A stretch of 42,321 nt of DNA from a virus, in the IMG/VR virus record IMGVR_UViG_3300045119_000234, positions 1 to 42,321 of that record; one strand, 5' to 3'. The position numbers and the translations under genes were made by a program. Below are positions 35,976-37,782 of this stretch, one piece after another. How positions within the stretch are numbered: position 1 is the first letter of the stretch; each line of letters starts with the position of its first letter. The notes below the pieces were generated by a model, which worked only from the letters and a program-made list of their open reading frames with translations, was not told where the DNA came from and ran no database searches.

Positions 35976-36299
35976 TCAGTAGCCGGGCGGTCGCATCCCC
36001 GGTGTCGGCATTCCTGGCGCTGGCATCGACGGCATGGCGGGCGCGCCCATCGGCTGCGGTAGACCAGGGGCGGCCACGCCACCGCCCGGCATGGCGCCGG
36101 GCGGCGGCGCGCCGACCGGCATCCCAGGCGCCGGAGGCGGGCTAGGCGGAGCAACCGGCGCTCCGGGCGTCGGCAGCCCGGCGCCGCCACCGGGCGGCTG
36201 GTACTGCTGATAATTCGGCGCCGGTGGCGGCTGTGTGATCTGCATCAGCGCCTGCGTGATGGCATCACGGCCCGGCGCGCCTCTGTAGGTGTTCGTCAT
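35976..36299 (-). CDS. Pro/Gly/Met-rich small protein
   Basis: A 107-aa protein. The first 25 residues (MTNTYRGAPGRDAITQALMQ) look folded; the rest is Pro-Gly-Met-Ala low complexity (GMPVGAPPPGAMPGGG). Overlaps the GNAT-like stop by 4 nt. It is likely a disordered virion or linker protein; function unknown. Confidence 0.7.
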   Translation of the reverse strand: MTNTYRGAPGRDAITQALMQITQPPPAPNYQQYQPPGGGAGLPTPGAPVAPPSPPPAPGMPVGAPPPGAMPGGGVAAPGLPQPMGAPAMPSMPAPGMPTPGMRPPGY

Positions 36300-36772
36300 G
36301 CGGCCTCCTGTTGCGGCGGCATATCGGGCAGGCCGCGGCTGACGCGGCGCATGATCCGATTGGCGGCCCAGGCTTCGTAGGTCAGGCGCGCGATGACACC
36401 GTCGCGCTCGCGGCCGTACATGCGCGGGAACAGGATAAACTTATACCCTACGCTCGCCAGTTGTCGCTGCAGACGTTCGTTCTCGGCGTCGAGCTGCATC
36501 ACCACCTGCTGCGCATGAATGTCGGTGAAGGGGTAGTAGTGCATCAGCGCGAGGCTCTGGCGCGTGAGCCAGCGCGGGTCGGAGGCGGCGCCGCTGATCT
36601 CGATCGAGGCGGCGGCCGGGCGCCAGTTATGGTAGACCAGCCCGGCGATCAGCTCGTGGCCGCGCAGCACGCCCATGGTGACGCAATTGCCGAAGCCGAG
36701 CTCACAGTCGGGCAGGCGCCCCGCCACGAACGCCACCACGCGGTCATTGTCACCGAACAGGTAGTTCAGCAT
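36296..36772 (-). CDS. GNAT-like acetyltransferase candidate
   Basis: A 158-aa protein with a beta-strand and helix pattern of GNAT enzymes: NCVTMGVLRGHELIAGLVYH (strands 2-4), AAASIEISGAASDPRW, a helical SLALMHYYPFTDIHAQQVVM and a late YKFILFPRMYGRERDGV strand. The classic Q/RxxGxG/A acetyl-CoA loop is not clear, so activity is uncertain. ATG 36772 (GGAGG 11 bases upstream) overlaps the DUF6817 gene by 23 nt. Similar unattached acetyltransferases are found in tail regions of other podoviruses. Confidence 0.75.
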   Translation of the reverse strand: MLNYLFGDNDRVVAFVAGRLPDCELGFGNCVTMGVLRGHELIAGLVYHNWRPAAASIEISGAASDPRWLTRQSLALMHYYPFTDIHAQQVVMQLDAENERLQRQLASVGYKFILFPRMYGRERDGVIARLTYEAWAANRIMRRVSRGLPDMPPQQEAA

Positions 36773-37226
36773 TCGCTTCGATCGCCTCCACCAGGGCGTT
36801 CCGGGCATTCGCGCTGATGTCGCTCTCGGCGAGCCGCATCAACCATTTCGATGTCGAACCTTGCTCCAGCAGGTTCGCCGCCTCAATCTCACGCAGGGCG
36901 CGCAGCTGCGGCGTGTCCGGCTCGACGAAGAAGGCGCCGGGGCGGTACGCCGTGGCGAAGATATAGACCAGCGCCTCAGCCTCGCGACCGATCACGTTCT
37001 GGATCGCGGCGCGGCTGGTGATTGGCCAAGCCCATTTCTGAAACTGGTTGGTGCCGTAGATCGAGTGATACAGCCCCGCCAGCCGCACCGGGCGGGGCGC
37101 GTCCCAGGCCTCCAGCAGGTCATGGGTGCCGCTCAAGTGCTCGAGCAGCGTGCGCCGCGAGTGACGGATCGTGTCAGCTCCGCACTTAAGCGTCAGGAAG
37201 CGACGGTGGCTCTCTGGGATCATCAT
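36750..37226 (-). CDS. DUF6817-like (HD-type) protein
   Basis: A 158-aa protein with the pattern of DUF6817: His22 (TIRHSRRTLLEHLSGTHDLL), His30, and a later RLAGLYHSIYGTNQFQKWA segment with His54. The His set resembles HD-domain metal binding. The family is found beside oxygenases in bacteria but its reaction is unknown to me. The start may be ATG 37226 or the adjacent ATG 37223, which has better spacing from AAGG. It overlaps the oxygenase end by 41 nt. Confidence 0.82.
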   Translation of the reverse strand: MMIPESHRRFLTLKCGADTIRHSRRTLLEHLSGTHDLLEAWDAPRPVRLAGLYHSIYGTNQFQKWAWPITSRAAIQNVIGREAEALVYIFATAYRPGAFFVEPDTPQLRALREIEAANLLEQGSTSKWLMRLAESDISANARNALVEAIEANAELPVR

Positions 37227-37782
37227 CCACCTTGAACATCAGCGTGACCCGCAGCTCTGGGCAGGTCCGTGACACACCTCTGGCGACGTGCGGCAGGCAG
37301 CCCCTGAACACCGCCAGTCTATTCGGTTTCGGGTGGATTGCGGCAACGATGTCGGTCTGCTCGGCGTCGAAGACCAGGGTTTCGCCGGCCCAGTCCGGCC
37401 GCCAGCCCGGGTGCGAGTAGTAGATCGCGGTCTGGCAGGTCGGCGACTTGCTGTCAGTGTGCAGTGTGCCATCCGATCCGTAGGTATGGGCGTTGGCGTA
37501 GCAGCGGATCAGCGTCCGCCCGGCCAGCACGTCTTGCGCCAGGAGCAGCCAGACGGCGTGAACCAACGGCGCGCTGGTCTTGAGTTCCTCCTCGCAGGCG
37601 TAGGGCGCCTCGTTGTCGACGTTGCGGTGGCCGGCGAAATGCCGGTGCCAGAACATGAACTGGTCGCGTTTGCGGGCCGATTTCCAGCCGAACGTCCAGG
37701 CGCCGTTGCGCAGGTATTGATAAATCTCGAGCTGCTGCTCGCTCGCCAGCAAGTCGTCGATGACGAAGCAGTCCGGCGTCAT
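37186..37782 (-). CDS. 2-oxoglutarate/Fe(II)-dependent oxygenase
   Basis: A 198-aa enzyme. The iron ligands are clear: His108-x-Asp110 (GTLHTDSKSP) and His165 (CLPHVARG), followed by Arg178 (ELRVTLMF) for 2-oxoglutarate. The double-stranded beta-helix strands are visible around them (QTAIYYSHPGW; ETLVFDAEQ; NRLAVFRG). The substrate is unknown; hydroxylation of a virion protein, nucleobase or small molecule are all possible. It starts three bases after the Gly-rich gene and is followed by DUF6817-like and GNAT-like genes with overlaps, so these act as one unit inside the late operon. Confidence 0.9.
   Translation of the reverse strand: MTPDCFVIDDLLASEQQLEIYQYLRNGAWTFGWKSARKRDQFMFWHRHFAGHRNVDNEAPYACEEELKTSAPLVHAVWLLLAQDVLAGRTLIRCYANAHTYGSDGTLHTDSKSPTCQTAIYYSHPGWRPDWAGETLVFDAEQTDIVAAIHPKPNRLAVFRGCLPHVARGVSRTCPELRVTLMFKVDDDPREPPSLPDA

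Follow-up and report, generated by a model that had tools for sequence, protein, structure and literature searches.

In phosphonate catabolism, PhnY* and PhnZ pair a 2-oxoglutarate (2OG) oxygenase with an HD-fold metal protein, and enzymes of the PhnZ/MIOX type hold a di-iron site with six ligands arranged as HD...H...H...D. The HD hydrolases of the small alarmone hydrolase and RelA-SpoT type carry ED as a catalytic motif. Oxygenases assigned to PF13640 and PHROG 274 include, by fold, the HIF prolyl hydroxylases, and they include the cyanophage 2OG genes, which are treated in print as metabolic genes whose function has yet to be investigated (PMC9602691). In peptide natural products, other iron enzymes have been reported to hydroxylate Asp and to cleave the backbone oxidatively (PMC12636437, PMC13060819).

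The window, i.e. the whole 42,321-nucleotide stretch of DNA that was analyzed (virus record IMGVR_UViG_3300045119_000234), encodes a 2OG-Fe(II) oxygenase and a DUF6817 protein, henceforth referred to as A and B, respectively. The two genes form a module, and B is a near-obligate partner of A in phages. Oxygenase A shares its motif, fold and family with the other PF13640/PHROG 274 oxygenases but differs from them in being coupled to DUF6817 and in lying within a late virion operon. The pairing of a 2OG oxygenase with an HD-fold protein resembles PhnY*/PhnZ by analogy only. PhnZ is a distant fold match to B (Z 7.7), and the HD dyad on which the di-iron site of PhnZ depends is absent from B; assignment of B as a PhnZ/MIOX-type HD di-iron oxygenase was rejected because the Asp of the dyad is replaced by Ser. 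The A-B pair also resembles the RiPP tailoring oxidases, some of which have partner proteins, in its proposed iron-dependent peptide modification and in the presence of a partner. The RiPP enzyme families (MNIO, HEXXH) differ from A, and leader peptides are found only in the bacterial relatives of A-B.

Layout of the virion operon and the position of gene C

The operon genes described here all lie on the minus strand. Gene A (37186..37782; 198 aa) is followed by gene B (36750..37226; 158 aa) and by gene C, which encodes an N-acyltransferase-like (GNAT-like) protein (36296..36808; 170 aa, or 158 aa from ATG 36772). Upstream of A lies G, a Gly-rich protein of 582 aa containing 26% Gly in translation (37786..39534), which is the proposed substrate and whose stop codon is located 3 nt ahead of the A start. 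The proposed modification site is a Gly/Asp tract at the C-terminus of G (approximately residues 552–582; 37789..37881). The upstream border is a tail nozzle-like gene (39543..41420; PHROG 5107, E 8.5e-111), which was used as the query for relatives; PHROG 5107 is labelled amidase, and the phiGT1 match of this gene is annotated as 'tubular tail B protein'. Downstream of C are a 107-aa Pro/Gly/Met-rich protein identified from its translation (35976..36299) and, as the border, an S74 (endosialidase chaperone) virion protein (34561..35961; PF13884, E 7e-12; PHROG 6121).

The original prediction had described three overlapping genes, with overlaps of 41 and 23 nt, placed between nozzle-like and Gly-rich genes on one side and an S74 gene on the other, and both the overlaps and the neighbors were borne out. 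Genes A and B overlap by 41 nt, and genes B and C overlap by 23 nt when C starts at the internal ATG 36772 or by 59 nt when it starts at ATG 36808. The A, B and C proteins of the closest relatives are ~44–61% identical to those of the window. Since the gene order is unchanged in these relatives, A, B and C are not chance open reading frames.

Protein C matched PHROG 4470 ('acyl-CoA N-acyltransferase') with an E-value of 2.2e-29, and no Pfam family passed its cut-off against C. Relatives of the locus were collected with the nozzle protein, using the best 80 of 167 viral relatives, and 45 of these loci reach the S74 gene. Gene C is present in all 45, while A and B are present in just 6 of the 45 and always occur together. 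The proposal that A, B and C constitute one cassette was therefore abandoned. Of the same three-gene order sought in relatives, only part was recovered, in that close relatives keep it but C mostly occurs without A-B. Gene C likewise follows the nozzle gene, as judged by coordinates, in published phages (Rhizobium, Sulfitobacter and others). Conversely, many phages outside this group, as well as plasmids and bacteria, have A-B without an adjoining C, and the pair lies far from C in nine phage genomes (G005, G006, G015–G021). Gene C is a core virion-operon gene of this phage group and stands outside the A-B module.

Joint action of A, B and C on one substrate, as a three-gene pathway, could be read from the overlaps in the window and the adjacency of the genes in close relatives, but it is highly improbable in view of the universal presence of C, the rarity of A-B and the separation of the two in the nine genomes listed above. 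A Polaromonas locus (L168) carries, after B, a short open reading frame that looks GNAT-like by sequence reading and has no Pfam match, which would favor such a pathway; however, this reading frame has no similarity to C (E 0.26).

Several smaller features of the operon were recorded. In three loci without A-B (L067, L068, L073), the place of the pair is taken by a gene for an 82-aa Cys-rich protein, with the Gly/Asp-rich gene on one side and C on the other. An RDAIxQALM-like motif occurs near the N-terminus of several virion-operon proteins, including G and the 107-aa Pro-rich protein of the window, with look-alikes in L011, L031, L104 and L139, and it sits near the C-terminus in G018–G021. 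This motif is possibly a docking or packaging signal. Elsewhere in the window, two adjacent genes (28084–28647 and 28647–29609) both appear N-acetylmuramoyl-L-alanine amidase-like by sequence reading.

The oxygenase-DUF6817 pair

Viral relatives of B were collected by an alignment-based search, since a single-sequence scan of viral contigs gave no B match, and the best 80 of 498 were used. In 75 of these 80 loci, gene A is found no more than 1 kb from B (58 overlapping or abutting, 5 fused and 12 with gaps of up to 1 kb); in the remaining 5, a contig end truncates the locus. The linkage of A and B that had been proposed from the window was thus upheld. Natural A-B fusions were identified in L123, L248 and L188 (Dyadobacter), and the reverse order, B-A, in L205 (Caulobacter); both domains also lie on a single open reading frame in L249, L204 and L207. 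Where A was found in plasmid records, B directly adjoins it in 6/6 (by coordinates, and by annotation for 3). DUF6817 is additionally fused to other oxygenase-type domains, namely 2OG_Oxy_5 after TPRs (L242) and JmjC_2 (L226), and matches to TauD (7), PhyH (2) and CsiD (2) were found among 60 of 73 neighbors of B-only bacterial genes. On account of this linkage, the fusions and the oxygenase-type neighbors, B is regarded as a partner that recurs beside enzymes of the Fe(II)/2OG type. DUF6817 had no described function, and a literature search for the family found no paper naming it; it can now be described as such a partner and given a fold.

Gene A is found without B in 2 genomes, which are the two new ones from a wider bacterial search that detected A at E <= 1e-25 in only 3/399 and 2/397 genomes. 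Among cyanophage records, A-like genes occur in 122 but B in only 7. Cyanophage ACG-2014g carries two oxygenase genes followed directly by DUF6817 with a 4-nt overlap. Two large contigs (L119, L141) carry three tandem A-type oxygenase genes and then one DUF6817 gene.

Oxygenase A matched the Pfam family 2OG-FeII_Oxy_3 (PF13640) with an E-value of 4.8e-6 and 27.9 bits, just above the curated cut-off of 27, and matched PHROG 274 with an E-value of 6.8e-20. The complete HxD...H...R motif previously noted in A was confirmed as the conserved residues H108, D110, H165 and R178. The first three are found in 96/96 distinct homologues having those positions and R178 in 88/96. The fused relative L123 was modelled as a stand-in for the window's own A (pLDDT 93.6, pTM 0.77). 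The L123 model displays the double-stranded beta-helix fold of the family, and its best Foldseek match was to HIF prolyl hydroxylases (PHD2, E 2.2e-9); PolD of Streptomyces, which presumably has a small-molecule role, was also listed. From the motif and the model, A is a predicted Fe(II)/2OG hydroxylase, and its prolyl-hydroxylase-like fold would fit, without proving, a peptide or protein substrate.

Three other assignments of A were rejected. The PHROG 274 label is 'DNA endonuclease V', but the motif and fold of A are those of an oxygenase; this label covers a 2OG-Fe(II) oxygenase family and has been copied into RefSeq cyanophage records. Membership in the FlmC family (NCBIfam NF052475) was dismissed at 57 bits versus a cut-off of 240 (E 2e-15), and a literature search on the FlmC family found no paper. 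For a defence role of A-B, PADLOC yielded generic CRISPR-associated 2OG models only.

Protein B matched the DUF6817 profile (PF20680) with an E-value of 2.5e-27 and 95.3 bits against a curated cut-off of 25.2. The B model (pLDDT 95.9) is an all-helical HD fold of the kind found in the small alarmone hydrolases MESH1, SAH and RelH, which it resembles over most of its length (VIA Z 13.9 to 7qoe, rmsd 2.8 Å, 138 residues); by Foldseek, the best E-value was 0.06, with a probability of 0.99–1.00 for the top rows. In a profile comparison, 4yf1 was matched weakly (E 5e-4), with H30 placed on the first His metal ligand and H54-S55 on the HD dyad, these being the metal and catalytic roles that the matched 4yf1 residues are assumed to have. 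One comparison of B covered 94 of the 95 selected rows together with the window, and another drew on a portion of the selected A and B rows. The HD-like His set reported for B is real with respect to H22 and H54, which are invariant, and H30, which is near-invariant, but the HD dyad itself reads HS, with S55 found in 157 of 160 distinct sequences. The position of the ED motif is occupied by GT. Nearly all of the 160 homologues retain both HS and GT, giving a nearly invariant HSxYGT site. Protein B thus differs from the small alarmone hydrolases in having HS for HD, GT for ED and the extra invariant H22, and its assignment as a small alarmone hydrolase or RelA-SpoT HD hydrolase was rejected: the fold is present, the HD dyad and ED motif are not. 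Judging from these alignments, the metal/nucleotide-hydrolase site of B looks rebuilt rather than decayed. At N118, Asp is found in 29/72 sequences from loci without A.

The fold of B bears on whether A-B modifies nucleotides or DNA, with B acting as an HD-superfamily-type nucleotide hydrolase and A oxidizing a base or nucleotide. The likeness of B to small alarmone hydrolases, its distant likeness to the cyanophage nucleotide hydrolase DatZ (Z 7.4), the clamp and clamp-loader genes that surround A-B in marine T4-like phages (L148, L152, L159, L125) and the PHROG label of A are all consistent with this role. The replacement of the HD dyad and ED motif by HSxYGT argues against it, as do the nearest solved folds to A, which are protein prolyl hydroxylases, though PolD is listed too. 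Moreover, the C39 exporters and leader peptides in some bacterial A-B loci do not fit nucleotide or DNA modification, which is considered quite unlikely.

As an auxiliary metabolic module, A-B would instead target a small molecule of the host or the host's 2-oxoglutarate/alarmone signalling. This reading would agree with the alarmone-hydrolase fold of B and with the B-only genes that in some cases adjoin TauD-type and NRPS genes, and cyanophage 2OG oxygenases are discussed in this way in PMC9602691. Such a metabolic role is nevertheless judged improbable against the late virion-operon position of A-B, its abutment to Gly/Asp-rich genes and the bacterial exporter loci.

Gly/Asp tracts in phage proteins

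Protein G is the sole open reading frame (ORF) of the window record with a Gly/Asp block. Across 250 loci with 8418 ORFs, duplicates among them, 36 ORFs have a C-terminal Gly/Asp tract, and most of these lie immediately upstream of A. In loci that contain both A and B, A is directly adjoined by 12 of the 14 unique ORFs bearing a block, whereas the figure for all ORFs is 113 of 871 (p 1e-9; related sequences entered the count). The two misses (L008, L012) reflect over-extended A start codons from ORF calling and were kept as misses. When G/X blocks were compared in viral loci, G/D was the one most often beside A (13/19 unique ORFs). A further tract case, L368, has the gene order A-B-tract gene.

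Among fully read phage records, a strict Gly/Asp block was found in 10/13 with A-B versus 2/8 without it (one-sided p 0.03), a count in which G022 and G025 have no nozzle homologue and from which G001, G002, G003 and G014 were left out as not fully read. Locus pieces of G001–G003 show a Gly/Asp block, and the G014 piece has none at the strict setting. The strict block is confined to one ORF per record, the Gly-rich protein between nozzle and C where those were found, and it persists where A-B lies elsewhere (G005, G006, G015, G017–G021). One read of the nozzle loci took 14 of the 80 (long contigs). The definition was not restricted to C-terminal tracts, since G018–G022 have the block close to the N-terminus. 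Two genomes of the same phage group without A-B, G012 and G013, encode equally Gly/Asp-rich proteins. Plain Gly-richness was discarded as a correlate of A-B, being weaker than Gly/Asp blocks; phages without A-B also have Gly-rich proteins.

A reciprocal search used a GGDGGDGGDGG-type DNA pattern, and 114 of 120 viral stretches encode the repeat. The A-B pair was present in 3/120 of these stretches, with all 3 pairs abutting the tract gene, and in 0/120 stretches found with a GGS control pattern; this difference in presence is not significant (p 0.25). The tract is common, with 117/120 stretches lacking A-B, and so is not sufficient to call for A-B. BLAST of G from the window against the tract proteins beside A in L117, L120, L121, L248 and L249 found no similarity, and the contigs of these five loci, some of them partial, gave no terminase match. 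On the nozzle-protein tree, ~2 changes of A-B state suffice, and the phage A-B/tract association therefore represents few independent events. Low-complexity proteins also diverge too fast for the independence of each tract case to be proved. The suggestion that the Gly-rich neighbor is the target gained circumstantial support from the A-B/tract association, although the tract is common without A-B.

That same commonness is compatible with A-B tailoring another virion or exported protein, e.g. the 107-aa Pro/Gly/Met-rich protein or a tail protein, with the tract being a common linker. In L104, L105 and L113, A and B are separated by a gene for a look-alike of the 107-aa protein, and plasmid A-B loci adjoin pilus (TcpQ/PilV/type IV pilus) and CAP-domain genes; those proteins of the plasmid A-B loci that were read contained no Gly/Asp tract. 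A different protein target is still considered unlikely given the preferential abutment of Gly/Asp blocks to A and the adjacency of all three pairs recovered through the tract pattern.

Bacterial export loci and the proposed mechanism

Bacterial B loci were taken from the best 80 of 110 genome relatives, comprising 14 loci with A and B and 66 with B only. A C39-peptidase ABC exporter was found in 6/14 of the A+B loci versus 0/66 of the B-only loci among these 80 (Fisher p 1e-5), and Pfam confirmed C39 or HlyD in L166, L170 and L176. In this same set, Gly/Asp blocks at a slightly looser setting occurred in 3/14 versus 0/66 loci (p 0.004). A 97-aa peptide encoded in L170 has a GG-type leader and, at its C-terminus, a stretch of Gly and Asp residues; L176 and L204 carry Gly/Asp-rich ORFs behind a GG-type leader, and L166 a short one. 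The leader peptides were found with a loosened regular expression, a stricter version of which found none. In their C39 ABC exporter, HlyD or GG-type leader, L166, L170 and L176 resemble class II microcin export loci. The phage records differ from class II microcin and RiPP-type export loci, as no match to a C39 exporter was obtained in the window record or the other viral loci. An RHS-repeat gene and glycosyltransferase-like genes lie near A-B in L165, and a large adhesin-like gene in L168. A literature search on glycine-rich bacteriocins with 2OG enzymes found nothing relevant.

The reading preferred here, held tentatively and at slightly less than even confidence, is that A-B tailors a protein and that in this soil phage the target is likely the Gly/Asp tract of G, modified late in infection. 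It builds on findings set out above, namely the A-B coupling, the conserved active-site residues, the HD fold of B and the recurring presence of Gly/Asp-rich proteins in phages, and of Gly/Asp-rich exported peptides in bacteria, alongside A-B. Oxygenase A would hydroxylate Asp or Gly residues in the tract, and B, as an HD-fold protein with a putatively rebuilt ancestral nucleotide-hydrolase site, would carry out a second step or present the substrate to A. Modification of the disordered tract would take place before or during virion assembly, and the modified tract may serve the virion in metal binding, stability or receptor contact. The marine T4-like phages, which carry A-B without a Gly/Asp tract in the fetched locus, count against the tract as the target.

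If the tract is the target, a phage-encoded hydroxylase would tailor a protein of the phage structural operon, and the same enzymes would act on exported peptides in bacteria. Some of the many phage 2OG oxygenases that are currently interpreted as metabolic genes would thereby acquire a role open to testing. The A-B loci are, in addition, small systems in which the DUF6817 reaction could be found by mass spectrometry. A more speculative extension, given a low probability, is that A-B is a portable protein-tagging system common to phages and bacteriocin-like peptides. Hydroxylated, metal-binding Gly/Asp tags might then aid the use of metal-uptake receptors or the holding of metal, with hydroxy-aspartate runs, for instance, mimicking a siderophore.

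DUF6817 genes without A were also observed adjoining ABC-transporter-like or cyclic-peptide-export genes, in three actinobacterial loci (L190, L199, L202) and on a Janthinobacterium plasmid (L313).
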